Positions 5,514-58,521 of a DNA stretch of 58,521 nucleotides are shown one piece after another. Positions within the stretch are counted from its first letter, which is position 1. Each line of letters opens with the position of its first letter. Position numbers and translations under genes: made by a program. Where the stretch lies: the IMG/VR virus record IMGVR_UViG_3300025789_000043, positions 1-58,521 of that record, one strand, 5' to 3'. This DNA comes from a virus. The notes under the pieces were generated by a model, which saw nothing but the letters and a program-made list of their open reading frames with translations, was not told where the DNA came from and searched no databases.

Positions 5514-7498
5514 CAAAGGAAGAAAAACTACATCTAAGTTCAATAAACGAGATCTTGGAGCGTGCGAAAGACCCACACAACTCAAACCGTTTCAAGGATT
5601 TGACAGACGCAGTGGCTCTAATACTAGAGGACCAAAGCTTCGTTGAGTTATTGCAGAAAAGTGAAAAACAAATACAGATCACTACAGAAAAAGATCTGTA
5701 CAGTGTAGCATTTGCGTACCTACAAATGTTTTTAATGAGACGTGATTATGAATCAGCTGCTACATTGCTATGGGGACCTGAAACATTTACGTCAGAACCA
5801 CGATCAGTACAAATGGTGTGGCATGGTATCAAGAATCACCATCTTGTTAACATACTTGGAGCAGCATCCATGGGTAAAACTTACTCTGCTTCTGCTTGGA
5901 TGTTACTAGATTGGATACTGGATCCTGATTGGACACTAGTACGTGTGATGTCGACCAAAGAAGAGCACGTTAAGAAAAACTTGTTTGGTGATATGCAGCG
6001 TATGTATCAGAATGCCGTCATACCACTGCCAGGGAAAGCGGACAGTGAGTCGATTGCCACTGAGAATGGCAAACGTGGTGGTATGGGTATCTTCATTCTT
6101 ACCATTGCACGTGGTGATCAAGCACGTGGTGCCATAAAAGGTGCCAAAATTAAACCACGTCCCAAGCATCCACTCTTTGGTTCATCATCACGTTCACGTT
6201 TACTTATCGATGAAGCTCAAGAAGTACCCACCAATGCATTTGAGGAAATACCTAATTTGTATTCCTCAATGGAAGAAGGTGATATTGAGCATACCAAGAT
6301 TGTAATGGCAGCAAATCCCAAAGATGTGTTTAGTGAATACGGAAAGAACTGTGTTCCTGAACAAGGTTGGGATAACATACAAACCATGATGTCCGATCAA
6401 GACACATGGGAAGGTAGTACTGGTTGGCATTGTGTTCGTTTGAATGCAATGAAGTCAGAAAACGTGATCCACAAGGCTGATATTCACAAACGTTTCTTTA
6501 CCCACAATGGGTATAAGATGAAACTTAAGCAATACAGTGGTGATCCTGATCATCCAATGATGTGGTCAGAAGTATATGGCATGTTTCCACCAAGAGGTAA
6601 CAAAACCGCCATTATACAAAAGCATTGGGTTGATCGTGCATATGGTGAATGGATCTTTGATGGTGGTAGTGTTACCATTGCTTCTGTAGATCCTGCATTC
6701 ACTGGTGACTTACCAACCATGGCAACAGGTCGTGTAGGTCATGCTGTAGCATATCGCACATATAATGATGAAGTAATCAAATTAGACACACCAGCAATGC
6801 GTGTGCAAATTGATGCAGTGGGTGTATTGCCTCGTGGTGATACACAGGAACTAGCTGATTCAATTATGGATCGATTAAAAGACCTTGGTGTTATGCCAAG
6901 CAACTTTGCAATTGATCGCACTGGTATTGGTCAAGGTGTGCATGATGCTATACGTAGACAATGGTTAACAAAGATACAAAATGTAGTTAATCCACGTGGT
7001 ACAGCTGATCCAGTTTCAATTATGGGTATCAACTATGCTGAAAAAGCTACTGATGTACTCATATGCGAAGAAGACACAAAAGCTCCTTTTCAACTATATG
7101 ATGGCATCAGGTCAGAAATATGGTATGCTACAGGCAGATTCTTTGAGTATGAATACCTTAAAGTCGGCAAAGGAGTTGATCAGGATACTTTACAAGAACT
7201 GGTTGATAGACGTGGTGGTTCTCCTGCTGGCAAAGGTAAGTTACTTCAAGTGGAAAGCAAGGATGTGTATAAGGCACGAGGAAACAAGTCGCCAGATAGA
7301 GCTGACGCATTTACCATGCTCGTACAATGCGCACGCATCTCAATGGCCATCAGACCACAATCACCCGACACACAACCATTAGAAGACGAGGGTACAATTA
7401 CTGACTATGCAGATAGCTTTAGCGTAAAGTTCGGTACACCAATTGATCTTGGTTTTAACAATACATTGCCCCAAGGACTGAATATTAATAAAGATTAA
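5510..7498 (+). CDS. terL: Terminase large subunit (ATPase and nuclease)
   Basis: The 662-residue packaging motor and DNA cutter. Walker A is GAASMGKT (residues 117-124) and Walker B is LLIDEA (231-236), with a coupling motif region MAANP near 266. The RNase H-like nuclease domain shows Asp394 in SVDPAF, Asp469 in AIDRTG and Asp599 in RADAF, the three acidic metal ligands. The length and order are normal for the family. It would dock on the portal encoded at 9489 and use the small subunit for DNA recognition. The ATGA overlap with the Zn-finger gene indicates coupling. Confidence 0.93.
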   Translation: MTKEEKLHLSSINEILERAKDPHNSNRFKDLTDAVALILEDQSFVELLQKSEKQIQITTEKDLYSVAFAYLQMFLMRRDYESAATLLWGPETFTSEPRSVQMVWHGIKNHHLVNILGAASMGKTYSASAWMLLDWILDPDWTLVRVMSTKEEHVKKNLFGDMQRMYQNAVIPLPGKADSESIATENGKRGGMGIFILTIARGDQARGAIKGAKIKPRPKHPLFGSSSRSRLLIDEAQEVPTNAFEEIPNLYSSMEEGDIEHTKIVMAANPKDVFSEYGKNCVPEQGWDNIQTMMSDQDTWEGSTGWHCVRLNAMKSENVIHKADIHKRFFTHNGYKMKLKQYSGDPDHPMMWSEVYGMFPPRGNKTAIIQKHWVDRAYGEWIFDGGSVTIASVDPAFTGDLPTMATGRVGHAVAYRTYNDEVIKLDTPAMRVQIDAVGVLPRGDTQELADSIMDRLKDLGVMPSNFAIDRTGIGQGVHDAIRRQWLTKIQNVVNPRGTADPVSIMGINYAEKATDVLICEEDTKAPFQLYDGIRSEIWYATGRFFEYEYLKVGKGVDQDTLQELVDRRGGSPAGKGKLLQVESKDVYKARGNKSPDRADAFTMLVQCARISMAIRPQSPDTQPLEDEGTITDYADSFSVKFGTPIDLGFNNTLPQGLNINKD

Positions 7499-16967: not shown

Positions 16968-17828
16968 ATGGACAATAATTGTATAATCCCACCGACAGTT
17001 GCATACCTATTTAAGGGTGTTGTGGGTGCTACAGGTGTATCAGGTCCCCAAGGGCCAATAGGTCCAAATGGTGGCCCATCAGGTCCAAGTGGACCCACTG
17101 GCCCTATTGGACCAACAGGAGCCACTGGTGCAGGTTCTACAGGCCCTACAGGGTCAACTGGAGCCACAGGCTTACAGGGATCAATCGGTTTAACAGGACC
17201 TACGGGTCCAATTGGTGCTACTGGTGCATATGGTCCAACAGGACCACAGGGTCCAACAGGTGCTTCTGGAGCATTAGGGCCACAGGGACCAGCAGGTGCT
17301 ACAGGTGCATCAGGCATAATAGGACATACTGGTGCTACAGGTCCAGCAGGTGGTCCATCTGGTCCAACTGGTCCAATGGGACCAACTGGTCAAACTGGTC
17401 CAGTACCAACAATATTAGGCCAAGCAAATCAAGTAAATGTAACATCTACTGGTGCGGTTTATACAATTGGTTTATCAAGCAACATTACTGGGCCATTATC
17501 ATATTCTGCCAATATTTTCTCAAATACCGTTAAAACAATGACTTATGGTGCTACCACCAACATTGATTTTAGCCAAGGTGATATGCAGCAAGTACAGTTA
17601 ACTGGTGATGTGACATTTACTACATCAAATATTCGCCAAGGACAGTCGCTGTTAATTAGAGTAACATCTGATACAAGTACACGTAATCTTACATTCCCAT
17701 CAAGTTGGACATGGTATCCCTCAAGTGTTGGTGCGCCAACAACGATCGCTCCATCAACATCATGCTTATTAGCATTAACTGCATGGACTACAACTGATCT
17801 AGGTATATCAGCAGCATGGGCATATTAA
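16968..17828 (+). CDS. Collagen-like fibre protein 1
   Basis: A 286-residue protein. A short N-terminal anchor ([17 protein letters not shown]) is followed by about 120 residues of Gly-X-Y repeats, rich in GPTG and GATG, interrupted by GG breaks. A beta-rich C-terminal domain (about 145-286) contains [20 protein letters not shown] and [15 protein letters not shown], a pattern of small carbohydrate- or trimer-forming phage domains. It probably forms a trimeric receptor-binding or decorating fibre. It starts the fibre cluster. Confidence 0.82.
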
Positions 17829-17829
17829 G

Positions 17830-18192
17830 ATGAAGCCATTTAATACAGCATTTGTTGGTACATTAAACGCAGCATTAACTGCTGATGTTAATTCAACAAC
17901 GGCATTTGGTGATGTAATTATTTATCATGGTTCAACTGCATGTGTAAGTTCACAAGTATTTGTTACAGCTAATGGTGGTACATCACCATATACATATACA
18001 TGGGCACGTGTATCAGGTTCTTCAACACCAGCAATTAGTCACACGTCAGATAACTATTCTGTATGGTCAGCATCATCATCGGTTTCGACCACAATGAATG
18101 CAGTATGGAATTGCACAGTAACAGATTCTCATGGTAAGACAGCAGTAACACCAAACATATCAATTCAACTAATCTTTGAATCTAATTCGTAA
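17830..18192 (+). CDS. Ig-like/PKD-like domain protein
   Basis: A 120-residue beta-rich protein. [17 protein letters not shown] and a terminal [12 protein letters not shown] are the hallmark strands of a PKD/Ig-like fold (Trp core, Cys, Tyr corner-like). Such domains on phages bind cell-surface sugars weakly. It begins two bases after fibre 1 and should be an accessory virion surface protein. Confidence 0.65.
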
Positions 18193-18214
18193 ACTTTGGA
18201 AATTCCTTGTTCGC

Positions 18215-21124
18215 ATGGCTACACCCGTAATTAACACAGTAACCCAACCAATCACCACAACTGCCGAAAGCACATTGGGTGCAACGGGTGCAACTGGTCC
18301 AATGGGTCCACAAGGACCAGCAGGTCCAGCTGGTGCTAATGGTAGTGGTGGTAGTGGTAATGGTGGTACAGGTGCTACAGGCGCTATTGGTCCACAGGGA
18401 GCAACGGGTGCAGGTGTTACTGGAGCCACTGGTCCAACAGGTCCAATTGGATACACAGGAGCAACAGGACCTGCAGGTGCCACAGGTGCCCCTGGTCCAG
18501 CTAGCACGCAAGGTGCTACTGGTTCTACTGGTGTTCAAGGTCCAGCAGGTGCCACTGGTGTTGGTGCATCGGGTCCAACAGGACCATCTGGATCAATTGG
18601 TCAAACAGGCCCAATCGGACAAACTGGCCCAACAGGAGTTACTGGAATTCAAGGACCAAGTGGATCGGTATGGTATGTGGGTTCAGGATATCCAAATCCA
18701 ACAGGTGTTAATGGTGATTTTTATTTAGATAAAGTTAATGGTAACGTATATCAACATGCATTAGGTGTATGGGGTGCAACAGCTGTTGCTAATATTTTTG
18801 GTCCATCAGGTGCACAAGGACCACAAGGAGCAACTGGTCCAACTGGTGCTGGTGGTAGCGGTGGCGGTACAGGTGCTACAGGAGCCACAGGATCTGCTGG
18901 TATACAAGGAGCAACTGGAGCTACTGGCGTTCAAGGAGCACAGGGAATAACTGGTGTTCAAGGAATTACTGGTCCACAAGGTCCACAAGGAATTTCTGGT
19001 CCACAAGGTCCTCAAGGAATTTCTGGTCCACAAGGACCAAGTGGTAATCAAGGTGCAATTGGTCAAACAGGTGCAGTTGGCATAACTGGTGCTCAAGGTC
19101 CACAAGGTATTACTGGTCCACAGGGTCCACAAGGAATTACTGGTGCAAATGGGCCAACAGGAGATAAAGGACCTACTGGCGATAAAGGTCCAACAGGAGA
19201 CAAAGGTCAAACTGGAGTTACTGGTGCAGTTGGTCCAACAGGTGCAGCTGGTACTTCTCCTGGAACAATTGGACAAAGATTAATAACCAATAATGCAAGC
19301 ACTGTTGTTTGGGGTAATGACCCATATATCTATGCAGAAGACTATGGCGTATCATCAAGCAACACAGATAACAATTCTCAGTTACAAGCTGCAGTAAATG
19401 CAGCAATGGATGTTAATGGAACATTGTTAATACCATCAGGTACTTTTAATATAACAACAATGATCAATGTTGGAACATCAGCAAGTAGATATACTGGTCG
19501 TGTAAGAATAATGGGTTGCGGAAAATCAAATACTATTATTATTCAAAGCTCTGGAACTGATGGTTTTGATTGTTATTTAGGAACACCTGATTCATATAAT
19601 GTAGGAATAGAATTTTGCGATTTTTCGTTGTATGGAAATAATGCAGCGTGTGGAACAGCAATTTCAATAAACAACGGACATTCTGAATCAATTGAAAGCA
19701 GAGATATAACATTAATAGATAATGTTATGATTACAGGTAATATTGGTGTAAGTCCTATATATGGTTGGACAAACGGTATTGTCATTAACAACGGATGGCA
19801 TGTCACTATTTTAAATACTTATGTTTGTGGTTCTACTAATTCATTACCTCCAACATCGAGTGGATTAGGATCAGGATCAGGATTTGCTATTACAGATTGC
19901 GTTAATTGTAAATTAAGCAATGTCACTATTGAATTTTTTAACTATGGTGTAAATATAACTCAACCTACATTTACATCACAAGGAATTCAAATTGATAACA
20001 TTCTTACGGTACAAACCAATAGCTCTATTAATAATATTGGTTCAACAATGTATTTAACAAATTTTCTATTTGATAATGGAAATAGTGGTAAAGTAACAAC
20101 ACGTGAAACTATTCATATCGAAAATCATTTAGGTGCAGGATATATGACTGGAGGACAAATCTTACAAGATGGTGGATCCAATCAAATTTATATTAGCAAC
20201 AGTAATGGTATAATGATAAGCAATGTTGATTTTACTAATCAGCAACATATAGCTCGTTCAATATATGTAACAAATAGTAGTAGAAATATTGTAGCTACAG
20301 GATGTTTGTTTGGTGGTGCAGTCCCAATGAAAATAGATTCTGGTTGTTCACAATGTTACATAAAATCTAATGGTTTATTTTCTACAGGTTTAATTGATAA
20401 CGGGTCATCTAATTATACTGATTTGTGGACAGGAAAAGGTTGTTATTTAAATATGATTAACGGTACTCAAACTGTTAATGATAGTTCTTTAACTCAAGTA
20501 TCATGGAACAATGTGGTATATGATGATGGAAAACTTAATACAGCAGTTGGATTAGTAAATGTTTCAGGTGGTTCAATTACATCTGTTAATGTCTTAGAAG
20601 GTGGAAGCAATTTTATATTATCACCTACAATTAGTGTTAATGGCGATTCTGGTTCAACAGGAGGTAATGTAACTGCAAACTTGTTATATGGTTCTATTTC
20701 ATCATTTAATGTGGTAGGATCAGGTAGTGGTTATGCTGGTGATACAAGTATAACAATAACACCTACTAATGGTTTTTGGCACACAAATAACAGTACTTTA
20801 GGAAGTGAATCACCTTACATTTACGTACCATCACTTTTTTCTCTTAAAAGAATACGTTTAACAGCTTCAATTAATATATCTGGAAATTCAGGTGGAGGAG
20901 TTCTTACACTTGGAATATGGGATAATACTGGTAATTTATATGCAGCATATACAGGTCCAAATAATAGTACTGGTAATTACATAACAATGAGTACTGGTTT
21001 AATTGATCTTAACGCATCAGGAAATCCTTCTCGTTTCTATGTAACAGTATATCAAAACAGTGGTTCTTCACTTACAATACAAAATAGTTCTGCATCTAAT
21101 TTTGTAATGCAAATAGAACAATAA
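18215..21124 (+). CDS. Collagen-like tailspike with right-handed beta-helix domain
   Basis: A 969-residue protein. N-terminal anchor [14 protein letters not shown]; collagen repeats about 25-150; a small module [20 protein letters not shown] (about 150-195); more collagen to about 350; then from about 362 a pectate-lyase-3-like beta-helix ([20 protein letters not shown], then [12 protein letters not shown]) up to roughly 745 and a beta-rich C-terminus. Beta-helices of this type bind or cleave host polysaccharide. The beta-helix part looks more AT-rich than its flanks. I chose the ATG at 18215 over a TTG at 18176 that overlaps the previous gene. Confidence 0.82.
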
Positions 21125-21133
21125 TTTAATCAT

Positions 21134-23443
21134 ATGTCATCTACAGGTTGCAATTCATGTTCAGATTCGTGGCAAGACTTCACTTGTACACCACCAGTAC
21201 CTGTGACCACATTTATTGCTGGTCCTGCTGGTCCATCTGGTGCAACTGGTCCCGTAGGACCAATCGGCCAAACAGGTCCACAAGGTCCTGCAGGAGCTGC
21301 TGCAAATGTTGGTGGCACTGGTGCTACTGGTGCTAGTGGTTTGCAAGGATTGCAAGGCATTACTGGAGCTACTGGTGCAAGTGGTGTTGGTTATACAGGA
21401 GCCACAGGACCAGTTGGAGCTACTGGTGCTCAAGGTGCCCCTGGTCCTGCTGCCACAATTGGTGCAACAGGTGCCACTGGTGCAACTGGTGCAGGTTCCA
21501 CTGGAGCCACTGGACCAATTGGTGCCACAGGTATTACTGGTGTTTATGGTGCTAGCGGTGCAACAGGTGCAACTGGCCCACAAGGATATACTGGCGTAAC
21601 TGGACCTACTGGAGCTACTGGTCCTGCTGGTGCTACTGGTGCTGGCTCAACTGGAGCCACTGGTGCAATGGGACCAACAGGAATACAAGGAGCAGGTGGT
21701 AATCAAGGATCTACAGGTCCAACTGGAGTAACAGGACCAATTGGATCTACTGGACCAACTGGTCCGCAAGGATTACAAGGAGTTAGTGGTATTGGATCAA
21801 CTGGAGCAACTGGGTCACAAGGTTTAATTGGTGGTACTGGTCCTACTGGTGCACAAGGATTACAAGGTGTAACAGGTGCTACTGGTGTAATAGGTGTAAC
21901 TGGAATTACTGGACCAACAGGAGCAACTGGTATTGCAGGTATTACTGGTTCAACTGGATCAACTGGTCCTAGTTATTATGGTACTTCCACAACTAGTATT
22001 GGTTTATCAACTGGATCAGTTACATTAACTACACAAGCTAACTTAGCTTATGCTGTTGGTTCGCAAATAAGAATCATATATGCATCAAATACATCAATAT
22101 GGTTAGAAGGCCAAGTCACTTCATATTCATCGACCACATTAATTGTTAATGTAAGTTTAATATCAGGTAGTGGCACATATAGTAATTGGTTATTGTCGAT
22201 CGCTGGTATTCAAGGACCTCAAGGATTAACAGGTGTAACAGGGCCAACAGGAATTCAAGGTGTAACAGGACCATCAGGATTAAGTGGTCCTACTGGTCCT
22301 TCAGGTGCAACTGGTCCAACGGGACCTACTGGTCCAACTGGTCCTACAGGTCCAACTGGTGCTGGTTATTATGCAACTTCGACAACAAGTAATACAATTG
22401 GTACTGGTTCAAAGACATTTACCACACAAGCAAATTTAGCATATCAAACAGGAGCATATGTTAGAGCAGTTTATTCAAGTGGTACAACAAATTGGATGGA
22501 GGGTACTGTTACTTCATATTCATCCACATCATTAGTAATTAATGTTACTCTTACATCAGGTTCAGGCACTTATACATCATGGAATATTAGTATTGGTGGA
22601 ACACAAGGTTCTACAGGTGTTACAGGTGTAACAGGTGTTACTGGTGTAACTGGAGCTACTGGTGCAGCTGGTTCTGTTGGACAAACTGGAGCAACTGGTG
22701 TTGGTGCTTACAATCAAACATTAAATACATCAAGTTCTCCATCATTTTCAAATCTTTATGTAAATGGTGGTTCTGGTAATTCTGTAGTATTAAATGGAAA
22801 TTCTGGTGGATCCAATACAGTAGCAACATTTGCTGGTTTGATATATGCACAGGCAGGTTTTGGCCCTGGTCCTGTTGTCATCTACACCAATGGTGCTTCT
22901 GGTAGTGGTACTAACAACTACGGTTTAGGTCTCACCAATGGTGCCTATGGCACAGCAGCCAACACATGGCTATATGGTGATGGTAGTGCTAGTTTCTCAG
23001 GTGCTTTATCCAAAGGATCTGGTTCATTCCGCATACCGCATCCATTACCATCAAAATCGACCACAAATCAATTAGTACACTCCTTTATTGAAGGACCATA
23101 TTGTGATCTAATATATCGTGGAACTGCTACTTTATCAGGTGGTGTAGCAACAGTTGATCTAGATGCTCACTTTGGTATGACAGAAGGAACATTTGTAGCA
23201 TTAACCAAAAATGTTCAAGTATTTGTTACCAATCAAACAGATTGGTCAGGTGTTAGAGGATCAGTATTAAACAACGTTCTAACAATAACATGCCAAGATA
23301 GCACATCTACAAGTACTGTTAATTGGATGGTAATAGCTGAACGCAATGATCCACATATCATCAACACTGGTTGGACTGATGCTAATGGTCGACCAATACT
23401 GGAACCATTGACTCCAGCAAATCCACCAACAAGTATACCCTAA
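21134..23443 (+). CDS. Collagen-like tail fibre with two repeated beta modules
   Basis: A 769-residue protein. Cys-rich anchor [12 protein letters not shown]...CTPP; long collagen repeat to about 278; a beta module of about 77 residues (YYGTSTTS...GSGTYSNW) at 279-356; collagen; a second copy (YYATSTTS...GSGTYTSW) at 410-487; collagen; then a C-terminal domain. The repeated module is a known, widespread phage fibre domain type whose exact ligand is unknown to me. It probably forms a trimeric, segmented fibre. It follows the tailspike by nine bases. Confidence 0.82.
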
Positions 23444-23481
23444 TAATTGCCCCAAAAGCCCTTAACTGATACCATAAAAAT

Positions 23482-24189
23482 ATGTCAAACGGTTGTAATT
23501 CATGCTCTGATGGTACTAGTTGGCCAAGTCCCAACTGTACCCCACCTACCCCAGTAACCACGATTGTAGCTGGTCCACAGGGTCCTAGTGGCCCATCTGG
23601 TGCTACAGGTCCACAAGGTAACCGTGGGCAACAGGGATCAACTGGCGTCACTGGACCAACTGGTCCACAAGGACAAATTGGTTTACATGGTATTACAGGT
23701 GCAACAGGTGCCACTGGCCCTGCAGGTACTAGTTCAATATTAGCTTACTTTACTGGTCATCAATGGAATCCAACATTACCATATAATGGCACAATAACAT
23801 CAATGACTGGAAATCAGATCCTTAACATGGGTCAGATACCATTTTCAAGTGGTGGCTATATATGCGATTTCAAGATACAATTTGCTTGGGTTGGTGGTGC
23901 TGCAACAGCTGGCAGCGGTATTGATGGTGATTTAAATATACAAGTTGGTCTTGGTAACACTGTGGCAACAATCCATTGGGGATTAGCTAACTCAGCTTCA
24001 ACAAGTATTGGTGTGGTACAAGGTTACTCACACTCAATACTATTACCATTAACACAAGGTTCTAATATTTACTTATCAACAAGTGCTAATTTCTTGTTAG
24101 TGGGTGCACAGTTGTCTGTGTACAATTATCAAGGAACGGGTACTTACATTATTAACTCCCCAGGGTGGCAGACTGGTGGCAACGATTAA
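23482..24189 (+). CDS. Short collagen-like fibre protein
   Basis: A 235-residue protein. Its anchor ([11 protein letters not shown]...[13 protein letters not shown]) is nearly the same as that of the preceding fibre. About 45 residues of collagen repeat are followed by a beta-sandwich-like domain of about 145 residues. The shared anchor suggests it attaches to the same virion site, or exchanges with the longer fibre. Confidence 0.78.
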
Positions 24190-39658: not shown

Positions 39659-42600
39659 ATGTCTTGCGACCCATGTTCACAACCTGCTTGGTGCACCCCA
39701 CCAAATTTTGACATACTGTTTCCTGACCTAATCGGTCCAACAGGTGCCACAGGTATACAAGGACCAAGTGGTCCCACAGGTGCTACTGGACCGCAGGGCA
39801 CAACGGGTCCCACTGGTATACAGGGACCAAGTGGCCCAACGGGAGCTACAGGTCCAATAGGCATTACTGGTCCAACTGGGCCAACAGGTTCCACAGGACC
39901 AACTGGTTTAACGGGTGGTACAGGACCAACAGGTTTACAAGGTAGTACAGGTTCTACTGGGCCAATTGGCAGCACTGGACCAACTGGAATACAGGGTCCA
40001 AGCGGACCGACTGGACCAATTGGATCAACAGGACCAACTGGTACACAGGGCACAACTGGACCACAGGGAACCACAGGTCCTACAGGCATACAAGGTCCAA
40101 GTGGTCCAACGGGACCAACTGGCCCTATTGGTATTAGTGGTGCAACAGGTCCTCAAGGTTTAACAGGACCAAGTGGACCAACTGGTCCAACTGGTCCATT
40201 AGGTTTAACTGGAGCGACTGGACCAACAGGCATACAGGGACCACAAGGCAGTACGGGTCCAACAGGTCTTCAAGGTAGTACAGGACCAACAGGATTGCAG
40301 GGTAGCACTGGAGCTACTGGTATTCAAGGTATTACAGGACCTACAGGTTTACAAGGACCAACGGGTCCGCAGGGTGCAACAGGCACAACGGGTGCAACAG
40401 GTATCCAAGGACCACAAGGTGGTACTGGATCAACTGGACCGCAAGGTATACAGGGTTCGACAGGACCCACAGGTATTCAAGGGCCACAAGGTGGCACAGG
40501 TGCAACAGGACTCACTGGTACAACAGGACCAACGGGATCAACTGGTCCACAGGGTTCAACTGGTCCAACAGGTTTACAAGGTATAACGGGACCAACTGGT
40601 CCGCAAGGAACAACAGGAGCTACGGGTCCACAAGGTACGACTGGTCCAACGGGATTACAGGGTACAACTGGTCCGACTGGTGCGACAGGCCCAATTGGTT
40701 CAACGGGACCAACAGGTATTCAAGGTATTCAAGGTCCGACAGGACCAAGTGGTGTTACTGGTGCAACGGGACCACAAGGTTTAGTTGGTAGCACAGGTCC
40801 AACAGGTATACAGGGTCCACAGGGTAGTACTGGTGCAACGGGTGTACAGGGAACGACAGGACCAACGGGACCACAGGGAACAACGGGACCAACAGGTCCA
40901 CAGGGTGATCGCTATTCGACAACGAGTACAACATCCTTGGCGATACCAGCACTGAATGCAACAGCCACAATAACAGTGGACACAGGATTGGCATACACAG
41001 CTGGACAGGAAGTCGTTGTATACAATTCAGCAGGTAACAATTTTAGCATGGTACTCACGAGCTACAATAGTGGCACGGGTAGCATGACTGGTACGGTTAA
41101 TTACGTAGTTGGTAGTGGAACTTACAATACATGGACAGTGAACTTGTCGGGCGCAGTGGGCACCCCAGGGGCCACTGGCGTCACAGGTCCCACTGGTCCT
41201 AGTGGTGTCAATGGTGCCACTGGTCCATCAGGTCCCACTGGTCCCACTGGACCCACTGGTCCACAGGGTATCACTGGACCCGTTGGTGGCACTGGTGCCA
41301 CAGGTTCCACTGGACCAGCTGGAACAAATGGTGCAACAGGTGCTACTGGTATACAGGGACCAAGTGGTCCAATTGGACCAACAGGACCAATTGGTATAAC
41401 GGGTGCCACTGGTATACAGGGTCCATCAGGTCCAACAGGTGCCACAGGACCACAGGGTGCTACAGGTGCTGGTGTAACAGGTGCCACTGGACCAGCTGGT
41501 GCTGGTGGTGCACTTGGTTATTATGGTTCATTTTACGATACAACTAATCAAACAGCATCAAGTACAACAACGGCATATGTTGTTAACATTGGTGGTTTAT
41601 TTGAGAACAATGGTGTATCGATAACATCAAGCAACAGGATTACTTTTGCGAATGCTGGCACATATAATCTACAGTATTCAATACAGTTTACTAATAGTGA
41701 TTCAAACTCAGATAATGTTGATGTTTGGTTGCGCAAAAATGGTACTGACATAACAGATAGCAATAGCATTTACAATGTATCGGGAACATCACATGGTGGT
41801 TCAGGTGCATTAATTGCTGCTGTTAATTATGTATTAACAGTGGCTGCTGGTGATTACTTTCAGTTGATGTGGGCCGTATCGAATACCGCAATTGGTATTA
41901 CGACATTTGCAGCACAGACAGGACCAACAGTGCCAGTTACACCAGGTGTCATTGTCACTGCACAGCAAGTTATGTACACACAGATTGGGCCATCTGGTGC
42001 CACTGGTAGCACTGGACCACAAGGCAGCACTGGTGCAACTGGTCCACAAGGTATCACTGGAGCAACTGGTGCTACTGGTATTCAGGGACCAGCTGGTGCA
42101 ACTGGTGCAACAGGTGTTGCTGGTGTTAATGGAGCAACGGGACCAACGGGCATACAGGGACCACAAGGTGCCACTGGTGTACAAGGTTTAACAGGTGTGA
42201 CGGGACCAACTGGTGTACAAGGTCCTCAAGGATCAACTGGACCAACTGGTATAGCTGGTATTCAAGGTGCAACTGGTCCAACAGGTGTCACTGGTCCAAC
42301 AGGTGCCACAGGTATCGGCATTACTGGTGCTACTGGTGTACAAGGTATACAGGGAAGCACTGGTGCTACAGGCATTCAGGGACCAGCTGGCGCAACTGGA
42401 GCAACTGGTGCACAAGGTACACAAGGATCAACGGGACCAACTGGTATTCAGGGACCACAAGGTGCTACTGGCGCAACTGGCGTACAAGGTATCACTGGAC
42501 CAACGGGTGTTGCTGGTACCAATGGATCAACAGGTGCAACAGGTAGCACTGGACCACAAGGTACACAAGGTGTCACTGGTGTAACTGGTGCCACAGGTAT

Positions 42601-43051
42601 ACAAGGTAATTTAGGTGCCACAGGACCAACTGGTGTACAAGGACCAAGTGGACCAACAGGACCAATTGGTATCACAGGTGCAACTGGTGCAGTTAATGTA
42701 TCATATCATACACAAACTGATGCTGGTGGTACTGGTACAATATCAGTTACCCCATCAAGTTATTTCCATGTTGAACGTGTTACACTTAGTGCAAGTTCTG
42801 GTAGCACACGCAATGTTGTATTAATTGCATCAGGATTAATTGCTGGTGCGCAAACATGGTTACGTTTTAGTAATCCATCTGCTGCTTATTCGACAACATA
42901 CAACGTTTATGACACAAGTACATCAGGTACATTGTTATTTACATTTAGTGTGGATGCATACACTTATGCTGCACAATTACAGATAGTTTATAGTGGAAGT
43001 GCATTCCAAATTATGACAACTGATATACCAGCTAGCGGTAATAATGCTTAA
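39659..43051 (+). CDS. Giant collagen-like fibre with C1q-like domain
   Basis: An 1130-residue protein. Cys-rich anchor ([15 protein letters not shown]), Gly-X-Y repeats about 25-415, a beta module YSTTSTTS...GSGTYNTW (417-500), collagen 500-615, a C1q/TNF-like jelly-roll domain (about 619-775; [37 protein letters not shown]), collagen about 775-1015 and a beta-rich end domain. C1q-like heads trimerise and bind sugars or protein. It should be the longest fibre and a receptor binder. Collagen triplets are dominated by GPT, GAT and GPQ. Confidence 0.85.
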
Positions 43052-50758: not shown

Positions 50759-51610
50759 CTATCCTTTCTTTTTAGATTTTATCTTAACAGGTTTGTCTGC
50801 AGTTTTACTATCTCGTACTGCATGATATTTATTTCTCTCAATCTTCCAAACCTTATCATTCATTGGCCAATACTTTTTTGTACTGAACCATAAGTAAGCA
50901 ATACACAAGAATTCCTTGTATGCTTGTTCCTGTTCATCCACAGTGTAAACTTTCCACTGTGGCATCATTGGTTGTTCACTATTGATACCACAATTAATGA
51001 TGCGTGGTGGTTTTTTTAAACCAAACTGCTTTTGATAACACTTAGCATAGAAAGCTAATTGTATCTTATATGAGTCCCAGAATGATGCTTTACCATTGCG
51101 GAACTTACTTGTTTTGTAATCAATGATAGCAAGACCATGTTCTTTGGTCACTGCTACAAGATCAGTGCGACCAGCAACGCCAACATCTTCATCGGCAAGC
51201 ATAATCTCACTGCTGACACGTTCTGAGACCATATCATGATACGCTGGAGCAAATGCTTCAATGTATGGTGCTAGGTCTTGGTCAATTGTCATCTGTGGGA
51301 ATATGTCTAATGCATCATGTAGGCGTGTGCCAAAGTCAGCTGCATCAGTACCCTTCTTGCTAGCAAGATCACTGATAAACTTCTTGTAGTTTTCAAGATC
51401 ATCACCCTTGTATGGATGAGCAACCATGGCTTGAAACAATTGATCTTGTTTCCAAGTATCAAGTGCGCCATTAGCACGTTCCTTCAACACTGTTGTTATT
51501 GAAGGATATGCGTTAACTTCACGTGCTGACCTGAGATCCAGATCATGCGCTGAAGCAATAGTGCCATCGGTCACAGTGTACCAATGGCCTGATTGTGAGA
51601 AGAATGACAT
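50759..51610 (-). CDS. PD-(D/E)XK exonuclease (Cas4/RecB-like)
   Basis: A 283-residue protein. YPSITTVLKERANGAL starts the fold; GTRLHDALD (about 94-102) carries the histidine helix, VAGRTDLVAV gives Asp150, and AIIDYKTSK gives Asp164/Lys166, with KIQLAFYAKCYQ following. These are the Cas4/RecB-type nuclease motifs seen in many phage recombination exonucleases. It overlaps neither neighbour but lies one to four bases from each. Confidence 0.82.
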   Translation of the reverse strand: MSFFSQSGHWYTVTDGTIASAHDLDLRSAREVNAYPSITTVLKERANGALDTWKQDQLFQAMVAHPYKGDDLENYKKFISDLASKKGTDAADFGTRLHDALDIFPQMTIDQDLAPYIEAFAPAYHDMVSERVSSEIMLADEDVGVAGRTDLVAVTKEHGLAIIDYKTSKFRNGKASFWDSYKIQLAFYAKCYQKQFGLKKPPRIINCGINSEQPMMPQWKVYTVDEQEQAYKEFLCIAYLWFSTKKYWPMNDKVWKIERNKYHAVRDSKTADKPVKIKSKKKG

Positions 51611-51611
51611 C

Positions 51612-52265
51612 TTAGAATGGATTCTCGTCTTCAGGTTGTGCTTGAGCTACAACTGGTTTGAGATCTGATGCCTTAACTTGTATACTTGGCAAGTGATGTT
51701 GCAAACCTTTGCGTTCAGCACTTATAAATATACTAGCTGCACATGATCTTAATTGTTCTGCATCCCATGGATCATTGCTTGTATCATTCATGTTCTTAAT
51801 TAATACAGCTTGTTTGTAAGCCTGTTGATACAATGCTGCAATCTTACCTATTTCTTCATTGAAGTTAATTGATGCTGATGCATTAGACGCAGTTGGTGTG
51901 CTAGGTGTACCAACTGGCATGTGAATACCAGCAACACCAGCAGGAGCAGGAGCACCACCAGCTGATGATACAATAGTGAGCTTTGCTTTTTCACCAAGAC
52001 TTACTTGTGGTCTGTCTTTGTATTGCGTGCGTTTAATTGCACCATAAAAGCTAACGATCATACCTTCATAGCGGATTGGATCTACGTTCCAGAATGATGC
52101 TTCGATCTTAGATGCATGATCTTGTGGATCAACTAAGATACATTTAGCGGAACCTTTACCTTGATATGGTGCTTTTGCACTTGTTACTAGTGCATTAAAA
52201 GAACCATCGACCCAAGTGTCTGGTTGTTGTGCGATAATACCTGCGATATTTGTTGTTTTAGCCAT
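51612..52265 (-). CDS. SSB-like protein with acidic C-terminal tip
   Basis: A 217-residue protein. Residues 15-100 look like an OB fold (SFNALVTSAKAPYQGKGSAK, SKIEASFWNVDPIRYEGMIV). A Pro/Ala/Thr-rich linker and helices follow. The end PEDENPF resembles the acidic tip of SSB proteins (DDDIPF type) that docks replication partners. It probably coats single-stranded DNA beside the exonuclease and the primase-helicase. Confidence 0.6.
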   Translation of the reverse strand: MAKTTNIAGIIAQQPDTWVDGSFNALVTSAKAPYQGKGSAKCILVDPQDHASKIEASFWNVDPIRYEGMIVSFYGAIKRTQYKDRPQVSLGEKAKLTIVSSAGGAPAPAGVAGIHMPVGTPSTPTASNASASINFNEEIGKIAALYQQAYKQAVLIKNMNDTSNDPWDAEQLRSCAASIFISAERKGLQHHLPSIQVKASDLKPVVAQAQPEDENPF

Positions 52266-52270
52266 AACTG

Positions 52271-52453
52271 TTATAATTTAATTTTATGTTCTTTAAGTTT
52301 GTTTACCATTTCATCGATTACATAACCAGTTCGTTTGTAACTTTCTGGTACATGTTTCTCAATATATTCAAGTGTTACTGGATCTACAGAACACGAGAGA
52401 ATCTTTCTTAATCCTTTGCCCAAACGTGGGCGACCTAGTTTTGTTTTTAGCAT
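52271..52453 (-). CDS. Small ribbon-helix-helix-like protein
   Basis: A 60-residue basic protein: KLGRPRLGKGLRKILSCSVD is a possible beta strand, then LEYIEKHVPESYKRTGYVID and a helix EMVNKLKEHK, the order of a ribbon-helix-helix DNA-binding domain. It might autoregulate the leftward operon. No partner toxin is beside it. Confidence 0.5.
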   Translation of the reverse strand: MLKTKLGRPRLGKGLRKILSCSVDPVTLEYIEKHVPESYKRTGYVIDEMVNKLKEHKIKL

Positions 52454-52455
52454 CT

Positions 52456-52659
52456 TTATTGTGAAGTTGAAATTACTGTGCAGCGTGTTGTTGGTTTGTT
52501 AGCTACTTTCATGAATCTTTCAATAGCAAGCTCTTCACTATCTGATTCGATCCATAAACAACCACCACATTTAACATACGCTGGTGGTTTTGATGGTTGG
52601 CCTTTATCTGTCCAAGGTACAACCATTTCATTAACATGCCATTCAATTTGATATCTCAT
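52456..52659 (-). CDS. Hypothetical small phage protein
   Basis: A 67-residue protein starting MRYQIEWHVNEMVVPW, with a VKCGGCLWIESDSEELAIER segment. There is one CxxC only. No family is recognised. It overlaps the upstream gene by one base. Confidence 0.5.
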   Translation of the reverse strand: MRYQIEWHVNEMVVPWTDKGQPSKPPAYVKCGGCLWIESDSEELAIERFMKVANKPTTRCTVISTSQ

Positions 52660-52925
52660 TATTGTGATGAATTCACATCATGATCTATCACTGCTGAATT
52701 TGGGTTATCAAGGAATTCTCGTAATGCCTTGGTTGCTACACCAGCAAGGATGACATGCGGTTGCATGTTAGCTGGATTAAGGTTCTCATAGTTCAGTTCA
52801 GGAACAAACTTCACATCACTGATTATGGAACCCGTTGGTGACTCAGGTGTTGGTTTTAGCAATGCAATACGTATTGTAGCTTTGCCAACCAACATTGGGT
52901 TCTTTGGGTGGAATTGATCTTTCAT
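52659..52925 (-). CDS. Hypothetical phage protein at the head of the DNA-metabolism operon
   Basis: An 88-residue protein from ATG 52925 (MKDQFHPKNPMLVGKATIRI), beta-rich, no family recognised. An alternative start at 52988 adds 21 hydrophobic residues; I prefer the shorter form because the longer one would leave little room for a promoter. It opens the operon that runs to RuvC. Confidence 0.5.
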   Translation of the reverse strand: MKDQFHPKNPMLVGKATIRIALLKPTPESPTGSIISDVKFVPELNYENLNPANMQPHVILAGVATKALREFLDNPNSAVIDHDVNSSQ

Positions 52926-53020
52926 CACGAGGAGGAATGCACTTTCTTGTAATAAGGTCAATATATATTTTATAAAAAATGTTTGCATTCTTATAATTTA
53001 ATCACTTTTATTTAGGAACT
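52926..53020. promoter_or_regulatory. AT-rich divergent promoter region
   Basis: Between the leftward DNA-metabolism operon and the rightward small-gene operon. For the plus direction TTGTAA, a 17-bp spacer and TTATAA precede the gene at 53021, and a TATAAT lies nearby. The minus-strand promoter is not clear. Confidence 0.4.
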
Positions 53021-53182
53021 ATGAATGAAATAAACAAAATATCGGAACAAGAACTAAATAGATTATTAGCTGAATTATATGAGGAAATACCTGAAGAACC
53101 ATATACTGAAGCTGAACTAGATGAACTAGCACGATTACAACATTTACAAAACAACAGATTTCGTGTACCACATGAAATATGA
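53021..53182 (+). CDS. 53-residue acidic protein
   Basis: It starts MNEINKISEQELNRLLAELY and is Glu/Leu-rich, likely two helices. An AGGA site lies seven bases upstream. It overlaps the next gene by four bases (ATGA). The function is unknown. A minus-strand frame here is only its antisense. Confidence 0.55.
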   Translation: MNEINKISEQELNRLLAELYEEIPEEPYTEAELDELARLQHLQNNRFRVPHEI

Positions 53183-53355
53183 GCTTACCCCTTGGAAAAC
53201 AAATTAAACTCTTATTAGATGAAATGACATACGATAAAAAAAGATTAACGATAGCAGAAGACCTACTCAATGAGGCATGGTGCCACATTTCGGATCAGGA
53301 ATTAAAACAAAAGATTAGTGATTACTTAAAAGAAAACATATTGTCACGAGAATGA
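53179..53355 (+). CDS. 58-residue helical protein
   Basis: It starts MSLPLGKQIKLLLDEMTYDK, probably all-helical. ATGA overlaps with both neighbours place it firmly in a translationally coupled chain. No family is recognised. Confidence 0.55.
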   Translation: MSLPLGKQIKLLLDEMTYDKKRLTIAEDLLNEAWCHISDQELKQKISDYLKENILSRE

Positions 53356-53633
53356 ACCACGCAGACAAAGCAATTGAATTAGTACTTGGTGATCGTAATG
53401 CACATTATGGTACACCTATTGATGACTATACCAAGACTGCAAAGATATGGTCTGGTCTATTAGCACATAAACTTAAAGCTGAGATAACACCACAAGAAGC
53501 AGTCATTATGATGGTGGGACTCAAGCTCTCACGTGAGATGCATTTGCACAAAGAAGATAACATCATTGATGCACATGGTTACCTATTATGCCTTGAGTGG
53601 ATACAATCAGGTAAGCGTCCAACAAAGGTTTAA
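53352..53633 (+). CDS. DUF6378-like phage protein
   Basis: A 93-residue helical protein. It shows LVLGDRNAHYGTPIDDYTKT, an IWSGLLAHKL segment, then EAVIMMVGLKLSRE and DNIIDAHGYLLCLEW. This is the pattern of DUF6378 phage proteins, related in layout to MazG-like helical folds. No reaction is proven. Confidence 0.68.
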   Translation: MNHADKAIELVLGDRNAHYGTPIDDYTKTAKIWSGLLAHKLKAEITPQEAVIMMVGLKLSREMHLHKEDNIIDAHGYLLCLEWIQSGKRPTKV

Positions 53634-53634
53634 C

Positions 53635-53877
53635 ATGGAAGACAAACTAATTGATATACCTGACAAGTATCAGATTGAGTGGGAAGGCATGCCTGAATTT
53701 GTTCAAGAGCCACAGAAACCATTTGCCAAAATCATTGTGAGATTTGAGACAGAACAAGATTTGCAAGACTTTTCTAAACTGATCGGCCAAAAGCTAACGC
53801 CAAAAACAAAGAGCATATGGCACCCACAACTGATTCGTGGTAAGAACGCTGGACTCAGATATACTGATGCAACCTAA
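53635..53877 (+). CDS. Conserved small protein next to a glycosyltransferase
   Basis: An 80-residue protein starting MEDKLIDIPDKYQIEW. Its FAKIIVRFETEQDLQDFSKL...LTPKTKSIWHP core is a pattern I recall directly before TAGT-type glycosyltransferases in phages. It overlaps that gene by 11 bases. It may assist the enzyme; the function is unknown. Confidence 0.6.
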   Translation: MEDKLIDIPDKYQIEWEGMPEFVQEPQKPFAKIIVRFETEQDLQDFSKLIGQKLTPKTKSIWHPQLIRGKNAGLRYTDAT

Positions 53878-54730
53878 GTATCCAGTCTACGTGATTAGTA
53901 AGGGTCGCTGGAACGTGCGCTTAACAGTGCGTGCATTGGAGCGCATGAGTTGTAAGTATTCTATCGTGGTTGAGCCACAGGAATACAATAACTATGCTGA
54001 ACACATTGATAAGCGTAACATATTGGTATTACCATTCAGCAATTTGGGTCAGGGTAGCATACCAGCACGCAATTGGGTGTGGGAGCATAGCATGTCACTC
54101 GGCCATGATAAGCACTGGATTATTGATGATAACATTGAGGACTTTAATAGGCTCAATAGGAACATGAAGCCAGTGGTGCGTACACCAGCGATCTTTAGGG
54201 CTGCTGAGGACTTTGTGGATCGCTACACAAATGTAGCAATTGCTGGATTCAATTACTATTCATTCTGTAAAACAACTGAAAGGATACCGCCATACTACCT
54301 GAACACACGTATCTATTCATGTATTTTAATTGATAATAAGATACCTTACAGATGGAGAGGTAGATACAATGAGGACACTGACTTGAGCCTGCGTGTACTC
54401 AAGGATGGTTACTGCACTGTGCTATTTAATGCATTCCTTGCTGGCAAGGTGACCACCATGCGCATGAAAGGTGGCAACACTGATGAACTGTACCAAGGTG
54501 AGGGCAGAAAGCTTATGGCACAGGCATTAGTGGACATGCACCCTGATGTGGTCAAGATGACATGGAAGTTCAACAGATGGCATCATCAGGTTGATTACAG
54601 GCCATTTAAAGCAAATAAACTGTTAAGAAAGCCAGATGTAGTTGTGCCAAAAGGCATTAACAATTATGGTATGATATTAACAAATCATGAGCCTAAACCA
54701 CAAACTCAACCAACCATTCAGCATAGGTGA
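53867..54730 (+). CDS. TET/JBP-associated-type glycosyltransferase (TAGT)
   Basis: A 287-residue protein from ATG 53867. YPVYVISKGRWNVRLTVRAL, VVEPQEYNNYAEHI, LPFSNLGQGSIPARNWVWEH, an acidic IIDDNI (86-90), then RWRGRYNEDTDLSLRVLKDG are signatures I associate with the family of phage glycosyltransferases linked to modified pyrimidines. Relatives are predicted to glycosylate hydroxymethyl bases, but no TET/JBP or base-hydroxymethylase gene is visible here. The acceptor is therefore open. Confidence 0.72.
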   Translation: MQPKYPVYVISKGRWNVRLTVRALERMSCKYSIVVEPQEYNNYAEHIDKRNILVLPFSNLGQGSIPARNWVWEHSMSLGHDKHWIIDDNIEDFNRLNRNMKPVVRTPAIFRAAEDFVDRYTNVAIAGFNYYSFCKTTERIPPYYLNTRIYSCILIDNKIPYRWRGRYNEDTDLSLRVLKDGYCTVLFNAFLAGKVTTMRMKGGNTDELYQGEGRKLMAQALVDMHPDVVKMTWKFNRWHHQVDYRPFKANKLLRKPDVVVPKGINNYGMILTNHEPKPQTQPTIQHR

Positions 54731-54911
54731 CAAAGTATGGTTACATGACAGATGTAGTCCAAGCGGTATGATTGTGAAAACAGTTGATACCAGATATGAA
54801 AGAATGTATATGGTTGAATGGAACGATGGTGACTGTGACGAGTATTATGATTTTCAATTAACAAAAGAGCGACCAGAAAAAGATTTAACATTAATAAACA
54901 TAGACGATTAA
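54687..54911 (+). CDS. Small SH3/KOW-like protein
   Basis: A 74-residue beta-rich protein. FSIGDKVWLHDRCSPSGMIV, followed by MYMVEWNDGDCDEYYDF, suggests a small SH3-like barrel. It overlaps the glycosyltransferase end by 44 bases. The function is unknown. Confidence 0.55.
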   Translation: MSLNHKLNQPFSIGDKVWLHDRCSPSGMIVKTVDTRYERMYMVEWNDGDCDEYYDFQLTKERPEKDLTLINIDD

Positions 54912-54912
54912 C

Positions 54913-55002
54913 ATGAACACAACACCAACAATATTGGCTACACTGATTGCGTTAGCCGTAGTACTTGTTTTAATTAAACTACCAAGAGATCCACAACTAT
55001 GA
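54913..55002 (+). CDS. 29-residue single-span membrane peptide
   Basis: It starts MNTTPTILATLIALAVVLVL and ends with a short basic/polar tail. ATGA overlap with the next gene. One predicted span; the function is unknown. Confidence 0.5.
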   Translation: MNTTPTILATLIALAVVLVLIKLPRDPQL

Positions 55003-57053: not shown

Positions 57054-57329
57054 ATGAAAGAAAAATATAACATAGAACTAGAAGCATCAGAAATAATGGG
57101 CAGATTAAGTGACAACCTCTACCATACCTACACGATATATGCCACAGTTACAGACAAACCGTCAAAAACTGTTATTATTGGTGTCATAGAGCTTAATAAA
57201 GGTGAGTACCAAATACAATTCATGGGTAGCTCAAAAGATTATGGTATCACTAGCAACGGCATCAATGTTATTGGCAACATGCTTGATACATTAAACATTG
57301 CACTAAAAGCACTTAACAGAAAACCATGA
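57054..57329 (+). CDS. Hypothetical phage protein
   Basis: A 91-residue protein from ATG 57054 (MKEKYNIELEASEIMGRLSD), with alternating strands (HTYTIYATVTDKPSKTVIIG) and a C-terminal helix. No family is recognised. It overlaps the next gene by four bases. Confidence 0.55.
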   Translation: MKEKYNIELEASEIMGRLSDNLYHTYTIYATVTDKPSKTVIIGVIELNKGEYQIQFMGSSKDYGITSNGINVIGNMLDTLNIALKALNRKP

Positions 57330-57637
57330 AGCCAAAATCGCCCAAGAAGAACACCGATGTACAGGAAAGCTACGACTCATTCGATGAAACAATGGCATCA
57401 CTAAGAAACAACATAGCCACACAGATACTAGAACGTAACCTGAGACTAGTTACCAACCTAGTAAACAAATCAGAAAAGAACAAAAACAAAACCATCAAGG
57501 AGTTCAGCCAAGAAATGAGCCTAAACCTACTACTCACATCATATTGTGAAGTAATAGAACACATGGAACTACTTGACTCAGTACCAGCATATAACGAAGC
57601 ACTACGTAAAAATGCTACCTTGCAACGCTGGACATAA
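57326..57637 (+). CDS. Hypothetical helical, basic protein
   Basis: A 103-residue Lys/Asn-rich helical protein (MASLRNNIATQILERNLRLV, then IKEFSQEMSLNLLLTSYCEV). ATGA overlap with the upstream gene. No family is recognised; its charge suggests nucleic-acid binding. Confidence 0.5.
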   Translation: MKPKSPKKNTDVQESYDSFDETMASLRNNIATQILERNLRLVTNLVNKSEKNKNKTIKEFSQEMSLNLLLTSYCEVIEHMELLDSVPAYNEALRKNATLQRWT

Positions 57638-57804: not shown

Positions 57805-57815
57805 CAGGGTGTCAC
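57801..57815 (+). repeat. Hairpin GTGACA-GGG-TGTCAC
   Basis: A perfect 6-bp stem with a 3-nt loop overlapping the last gene's stop. No T-run follows. It lies at the start of the ACATG-rich region. Confidence 0.45.
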
Positions 57816-57888
57816 ATTGGAACATGCCTCATGCAACAACTGACAACATGTGCTTGACACATGCGGACACGTGCGGACATTGTGGGAC

Positions 57889-57918
57889 TTGACATGGAAC
57901 ATGGACATGTGATACATT
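57889..57918 (+). promoter_or_regulatory. Promoter upstream of a candidate small RNA
   Basis: TTGACA (57889-57894), an 18-bp spacer and TACATT (57913-57918). Another TTGACA lies at 57854-57859 within TGCTTGACACATG. The predicted start (57924-57926) falls at the base of a hairpin. The surrounding 57797-57918 holds at least seven ACATG boxes, which could be operator sites. Confidence 0.55.
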
Positions 57919-57924
57919 GCTGGT

Positions 57925-58004
57925 ACATTAAGTGCCGTTAATGTAGAGTACACTTTTGTTAGTGTTTGAAGTACCCCACAGGACGGCACCTCTTGTGGGG
58001 TTTT
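57925..58004 (+). ncRNA. Candidate ~80-nt RNA with two hairpins and complementary loops
   Basis: Hairpin 1 is ACATTAA-GTGCCG-TTAATGT (57925-57944), a perfect 7-bp stem and a 6-nt loop. Hairpin 2 is ACCCCACA ... TGTGGGGT (57973-58001), a perfect 8-bp stem whose 13-nt loop contains CGGCAC (57984-57989). The two loops are exact complements, so an intramolecular kissing-loop or pseudoknot can form. A TTTT run follows hairpin 2, so it also serves as a terminator. A promoter stands just upstream and no protein gene lies inside. Function unknown. Confidence 0.6.
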
Positions 58005-58240
58005 CTGTATCTACCCAAAACAGATGCACAAACTGATCCAACCACCTGTGCAAGGTGTAACGGTCTTGATGATAGTAGCGGTGCCACCTTGACCAATCTG
58101 TTAGACCAAGTGGCTTAATTCATGGCGAAACCCGTTAGGGGTTTGTGAGTCGCTACATGCAGGGTCAATTGAGCCAATACCGCCCCATATGCATGTAGGT
58201 GTTCATCAGGCTTCCTAGTCCGATTTGCAATAGTGATGCA
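58005..58240 (+). other. Structured non-coding stretch
   Basis: No gene is visible. CAAGGTG (58051-58057) can pair with CACCTTG (58085-58091), or the same CACCTTG region can pair with CAAGTGGC (58107-58114): two exclusive foldings. AAACCC-GTTAG-GGGTTT (58128-58144) and CTACATGC/GCATGTAG (58153-58160 with 58191-58198) are further perfect stems. It may be an RNA or a DNA-level regulatory region. Confidence 0.35.
58223..58234 (+). repeat. 12-bp direct repeat, copy 1
   Basis: ATTTGCAATAGT. The second copy (58510-58521) is the last 12 bases of the window. Confidence 0.5.
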
Positions 58241-58319
58241 CACTCACCTGTCATGGGTGAGTTGTGCCCATGCAACTAACCCTGAACCGAAATGCACTAG
58301 TGAATCATGGTACATGGTA

Positions 58320-58521
58320 CAATGTGCCAATACCAATATGAACCAATCCAATTGGTTCAATGTGCCAATGCACCAATGTGAACCAATGTGCCAATCCAAT
58401 GCCAATCCCAATCCAATGTGCCAATGTGAACCAATCGAATTGGCCAATCCAATTCGTATCCAATCCATGTGGCAATCCCAATCCATGCAATGTGGCATTA
58501 CCAATGCCAATTTGCAATAGT
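58320..58521 (+). repeat. CCAAT repeat field
   Basis: About 20 CCAAT pentamers in 200 bp, with sub-units such as CCAATGTG(AA), CCAATCCAAT and TGCCAATG, and AATTGG palindromic junctions. Open frames on both strands here are a result of the repeat. It could act as replication iterons, a recombination site or a packaging region; the window ends inside it. Confidence 0.75.

Follow-up and report, generated by a model that had tools for sequence, protein, structure and literature searches.

What does the noncoding stretch around position 57,925 of an uncultured freshwater phage genome encode, where the loop of one hairpin is complementary to the loop of the next? The genome is an uncultured virus record of 58,521 bases, analysed over its whole length (the window), in which a terminase, a primase/helicase, an exonuclease and a DNA polymerase exonuclease subunit are encoded (PHROG match). 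An initial annotation of positions 57925-58004 had proposed a compact kissing-loop RNA of about 80 nt, possibly an antisense regulator, decoy or copy-control type RNA, which starts behind a promoter-like site, passes through two perfect hairpins and ends at a TTTT terminator. We regard the site as probably a phage noncoding RNA gene with kissing loops and with possible control of termination and read-through by loop self-recognition. The structure is strongly supported, and the function is what we infer. The features of the site are as follows:

57889-57918, + strand: promoter, TTGACA, 18 bp, extended −10 box TG-A-TACATT (TGATACATT), 10 of 12 matches
57924-57945, + strand: hairpin 1, TACATTAA-GTGCCG-TTAATGTA, 8 bp, loop at 57932-57937
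57946-57972, + strand: linker, contains TTTGTTAGTGTTTGA
57973-58001, + strand: hairpin 2, ACCCCACAGGA-CGGCACC-TCTTGTGGGGT, 11 bp including one G.U, loop at 57984-57990
58001-58006, + strand: T-run (TTTTCT) following hairpin 2, a terminator-like feature that is weak in the window
58006-58028, + strand: hairpin 3, TGTATCT-ACCCAAAAC-AGATGCA, just beyond the T-run
~58030-58295, + strand: conserved structured noncoding domain (3' domain) with helices at 58083-58114, 58128-58144 (then GTGAG), 58153-58198 and 58238-58267 (with GGGTGAG)

The promoter-like TTGACA-18-TACATT is present as annotated, and transcription is predicted to start at about 57925. As the number of promoter matches in the window is not above chance (18 sites found, 20.5 expected), the match alone does not decide and relatives are needed. 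The closest informative relative, L015, a locus on contig IMGVR_UViG_3300022602_000101 that is about 10% divergent from the window in many genes, has TTGACA-18-TACCTT, with −35 box, −10 box and 18-bp spacing retained and the letters of the spacer diverged. TTGACG-17-TAGGTT stands at the promoter position in L018 and L020, which form with G007 a group of distant relatives (primase 69-72% identical). Both hairpins exist, although the second contains a G.U pair and is in this sense not perfect, and no plausible coding sequence was found in the element, as had been claimed. The T-run after hairpin 2 is there as well, but is short and for this reason weak as a terminator in the window; it is strong in L018, L020 and G007 (TTTTTTCTTTT). 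The 84-nt segment folds better than 200 out of 200 shuffles (z −3.8).

The complementarity of GTGCCG and CGGCAC does extend to seven bases, pairing 57932-57938 (the loop of hairpin 1 and the next base) with 57983-57989 in the loop region of hairpin 2. A 7-nt loop complement arises in about 0.8% of shuffled upstream sequences. To judge this match we rely on the relatives, where loops complementary to each other occur in four other alleles. The pairs are GTGCCGT/ACGGCAC in the window, GGCGTGAT/ATCACGCC in L015, GGTGCAAC/GTTGCACC in L018 (hairpin 1 AGTCG-GTGCAA-CGACT, hairpin 2 loop TTGCAC), GTTAACGGC/GCCGTTAAC in L020 (hairpin 1 AGTCG-TTAACGG-CGACT, hairpin 2 loop CCGTTAA) and GAGGACAC/GTGTCCTC in G007 (hairpin 1 GGC-GAGGACAC-GCC, with GTGTCCTC held in the loop of hairpin 2). 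The complement is exact inside every allele (n=5), and the letters all differ between alleles. In a matrix of the longest complementary runs among the five alleles the diagonal reads 7, 8, 8, 9 and 8, while all other entries are 4 or less. Shuffle tests, one for each allele, gave p values of 0.008, 0.002, 0.0002, 0.001 and 0.005. A blind scanner looking for a terminator hairpin with a loop complementary to the loop of an upstream hairpin ranked the sites of the element top in about 400 kb of kin loci, with few weaker chance matches.

This co-variation, on which the initial annotation had made its reading depend, supports kissing loops and an RNA gene, and places the element in the structural class of kissing-loop RNAs, as the exact complementarity of the two loops is kept in five alleles. 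The complementarity in L018 and L020 comprises exactly the loops and the closing pair, which favors a loop-loop contact and speaks against an antiterminator acting by strand exchange; a mutually exclusive antiterminator is unlikely, as the complementarity in these two alleles never enters the stem of hairpin 2. In two alleles hairpin 1 is weak: it has 3 bp in G007, and in L015 either 5 bp and a tetraloop or 9 bp including a mismatch, the latter only if the RNA begins earlier. The 5' partner in these two may therefore be a strand and not a firm loop. In G001, at a distance similar to that of G007, the 3' domain is recognized by motif and a kissing pair was not detectable. Two further candidates were rejected: hairpin 1 recurs in L004 by chance, surrounded by different sequence, and the match in L031 falls, likewise by chance, into a methyltransferase-like gene.

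Upstream of its element, G007 has a second copy of the promoter-hairpin-terminator unit, now decayed (L044 14800-14960, minus strand). This copy includes a twin of hairpin 2 with the loop GTGTCATC followed by TTTTTC, while hairpin 1 is lost and one loop base is changed. The copy is a natural control for relaxed constraint. The apparent duplication of the unit suggests that a stand-alone small RNA gene is possible.

The window and L015 are the only two alleles close enough for counting changes in register. They are almost identical at 57806-57890 and at 58033-58521, and between these flanks (about 99% identity) lies a divergent island at 57891-58030, for which reason the identity of the loops itself seems to have been exchanged or selected. 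We counted 11 double compensatory changes, four of them in the kissing helix (where the loops change in register), two in hairpin 2 and five in hairpin 3; random substitution at the same sites reached this number in 11 out of 100,000 trials. The two in hairpin 2 replace A-U by G-C at 57973-58001 and G.U by U-A at 57981-57993. Five of the seven pairs of hairpin 3 are altered on both sides in L015 with pairing retained, and its loop ACC..AAAC is kept, as is TTTGTTAGTGTTTGA in the linker, which is different and longer in L018 and L020. Hairpins 2 and 3 exceed 500 out of 500 shuffles and every slid register. Co-variation over the five alleles shows that the loop-loop pairing and hairpin 2 are under selection on the given strand, and the comparison of the window with L015 shows this for hairpin 3 as well. 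Co-variation likewise shows the two loops to be partners, be it within one RNA or with a second copy of it; it cannot tell pairing in cis from pairing in trans.

L015 resembles another locus, L008, upstream of the site and the window downstream of it, and recombination around the site is therefore evident. Three contigs of the window's own phage group are almost unchanged at 57885-58028 and thus uninformative about the loops. A small gene upstream of the element (window 57326-57637) is swapped for unrelated genes in L015, and the next gene, encoding a membrane-like protein of 48 aa, is retained there, which points to mosaic exchange around the RNA.

The unit does not end at the T-run. Directly downstream lies a structured noncoding domain whose conservation the alignments show: it is near-identical in the window, L015 and close relatives and homologous in L018 and L020, where the letters of the stems differ. 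The motifs CTTAATTCATG, GTGAG and GGGTGAG are invariant. The stem letters differ and yet pair, with GCCAC/GTGGC against GGCAGGG/CCCTGCC, AAACCC/GGGTTT against ACGC/GCGT, and CTACATGCA/TGCATGTAG against CGTAGAAC/GTTCTATG. A covariance model of the 3' domain (R1) matches the close group only and did not find G007 and G001, and RNAalifold on a five-sequence alignment of the domain reported no double changes, the sequence alignment being out of structural register. Because of both results the domain in G007 and G001 is claimed from place and motifs only, which is weaker.

For the proposed compact RNA this has two sides. A unit of about 80-110 nt from promoter to terminator is plausible, and G007 appears to have duplicated it; the promoter is conserved, and the terminator is strong in L018, L020 and G007 and weak in the window and L015. 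But hairpin 3 beyond the T-run co-varies and a structured domain of about 270 nt follows, so that a longer read-through RNA is likely as well. Of the larger conserved unit, the interval 57925-58004 covers no more than the 5' part.

The element occupies the same genomic place in the window, L018 and L020: it lies where convergent gene groups meet, upstream of the primase/helicase gene by 5-7 kb. Genes for tRNA-Gln, tRNA-Gly and tRNA-Thr lie directly upstream of the RNA in L018 (2396-3052) and L020 (4104-4830), and the window itself has no tRNA. The terminase has no match among cultured phages, by which the window phage is without a cultured relative, and when the window region and the L020 region were used as queries against phage databases, no cultured relative with the element was found. 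A search of the genome_contigs collection gave no useful match. Among 4227 Rfam models none reached its gathering score for either the 5' element or the 3' domain; the residual matches are weak chance ones (E 0.2 or worse), except for a tRNA beside L020. In six records, searched up to an E value of 10, the covariance model of GOLLD (RF02032) matched nothing, and by these searches the RNA belongs neither to ROOL nor to another Rfam family.

Apart from a coding overlap at 6013, which is accidental, a genome-wide comparison of the window with L015 for a target that changes together with the loops returned only the RNA itself. This makes an antisense target in the phage unlikely. Within the two phage genomes compared, no target supports the annotated antisense regulator or decoy, or a trans-acting RNA in the manner of FinP or P4 CI. 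Separately, the linker sequence TGTTAGTGTTT (window 57954-57969) has an 11-nt complement to AAACACTAACA in the lineage of the window, L015 and L008. AAACACTAACA overlaps the ATG of neighbouring minus-strand genes, two in L015 (near 1440 and 1680) and one in L008 (near 10633). As a general trans seed the linker was rejected, being kept neither in L018 and L020 nor in G007.

Our view of the mechanism is as follows. An RNA predicted to start at about 57925 from the sigma-70-like promoter would fold into hairpins 1 and 2, whose loops would kiss over 6-9 bp. Hairpin 2 and the U-run may partly end transcription and give a short RNA of about 80-110 nt; read-through would give a longer RNA, of up to about 370 nt, in which the 3' domain and hairpin 3 are included. 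The compensatory change in hairpin 3, past the U-run, implies that the read-through RNA also matters. We consider it most likely that this is a new RNA of phages, which recognizes itself by way of its loops, inside a single molecule and possibly also between copies; it may control transcription into the RNA downstream. We tentatively suggest that the loops represent a self-recognition code, by which the short RNA, pairing with RNAs of its own kind both in cis and across copies, could set the balance of termination and read-through, or else the state in which the downstream RNA is assembled, in a manner similar to RNA copy-control or superinfection control. This suggestion is based on the fact that the loops are replaced wholesale, yet are self-complementary and mutually orthogonal.

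It is conceivable, if rather doubtful, that the alleles belong to a phage noncoding RNA of a new class, with complementary loops that relatives exchange, and that each RNA pairs with no other than its own kind. The short RNA, once terminated, might then act on its own nascent transcript or on assembly, and specificity during co-infection might be set by RNA-based superinfection or copy control, or by an RNA-only assembly with private contacts. To our knowledge phage noncoding RNAs, large and small, are few and mostly without known function. A kissing contact backed by wholesale loop replacement in five alleles offers ready-made orthogonal pairs. If loop identity does decide to which RNA a phage responds, this would be a self/non-self code of phages at the RNA level; if the loops build assemblies, a separate lineage would be added to the few natural RNA-only complexes.

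Self-recognition has a serious rival in a plain cis fold with exchanged cassettes, which we consider possible without favoring it. Here kissing would compact or protect the RNA or tune the terminator, and loop turnover would be neutral drift or cassette exchange. Any helix of importance can be expected to evolve by compensatory change, and the evident recombination around the site is also in agreement with this explanation. The complete turnover of the loops beside an almost unchanged 3' domain in the window and L015, however, exceeds what one would expect from drift alone.

The loops could also join molecules, loop 1 of one RNA with loop 2 of the next, into dimers, rings or cages, different loop letters keeping the assemblies of different phages separate. 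We judge such a homo-oligomeric RNA to be unlikely. GOLLD and ROOL, which are found in phages, often near tRNA islands, have co-varying kissing loops between chains, and in GOLLD the 3' part is conserved and the 5' part less so (PMC12286853). Likewise a phage noncoding RNA with co-varying kissing loops, a conserved 3' and a variable 5' part and, in L018 and L020, adjoining tRNAs, the window RNA differs from them in being much shorter, in its separate 5' promoter-terminator unit and in the missing model match. The pRNA of phi29 has two mutually complementary loops of 4 bp and serves the packaging motor (PMC7357161); the window RNA shares the complementarity of two loops that could join molecules, but pairs over 6-9 bp, lies far from the packaging genes, in a phage with an ordinary large terminase gene, and has no Rfam match. 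For an oligomer speak these precedents, loops that are mutually complementary and orthogonal between alleles, and the conserved structured domain that follows. Against it stand the lack of sequence or model similarity to GOLLD or any Rfam family, the loop spacing of 37-70 nt, which makes pairing in cis easy, and the strong terminator that in three alleles separates the kissing part from the 3' domain.

Plasmid antisense hairpin RNAs such as FinP, RNAI and CopA are small, with allele-specific loops and kissing contacts, and in this resemble the window RNA; they target a separate RNA, whereas the window RNA carries its own complement and has no second co-varying target. A trans-acting antisense RNA of the FinP, P4 CI or c4 style, directed against phage or host mRNA and self-complementary only secondarily, is improbable to us. 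It has a precedent in P4, whose immunity rests on the pairing of complementary leader segments (seqA, CI and seqC) and on termination ahead of the replication genes (PMC4825925). The P4 CI RNA, a noncoding leader of a phage with segments that complement each other and with transcription termination, is a possible model for allele-specific control, but the partners in the window are two hairpin loops, the downstream product is a noncoding RNA and no Rfam match was obtained. The complement of the linker at start codons in L015 and L008 would fit an antisense function; it is weakened by the absence of linker conservation in L018, L020 and G007 and by the similar A/C-rich leaders that are common in these phages, and no other genomic place changes with the loops between the window and L015.

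That the site acts as DNA, as a replication origin or a recombination site with cruciforms, is very improbable. It is noncoding, rich in inverted repeats and followed by CCAAT-type repeats, as such an element might be. Cruciform DNA gives no role to loop-loop complementarity, however, an RNA of the + strand agrees with the G.U pairs of hairpins 2 and 3, the spacing between the promoter boxes is retained, and the CCAAT repeats are spread across several intergenic stretches in kin. A chance pattern, which a single 7-nt loop match (p about 0.01) could suggest, has practically no probability left and is refuted by the alleles, five of which agree, each with different letters.

Two further observations lie outside the element. 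Repeats rich in CCAAT/ATTGG occur at 58320-58521 of the window, at 1500, 3000 and 4500 in G001 and at 51500-55000 in G007, concentrated in the noncoding stretches of this phage group. The stretches 16968-24189 and 39659-43051 of the window encode several long proteins, which carry collagen-like G-x-y repeats and may be tail or fibre-like.
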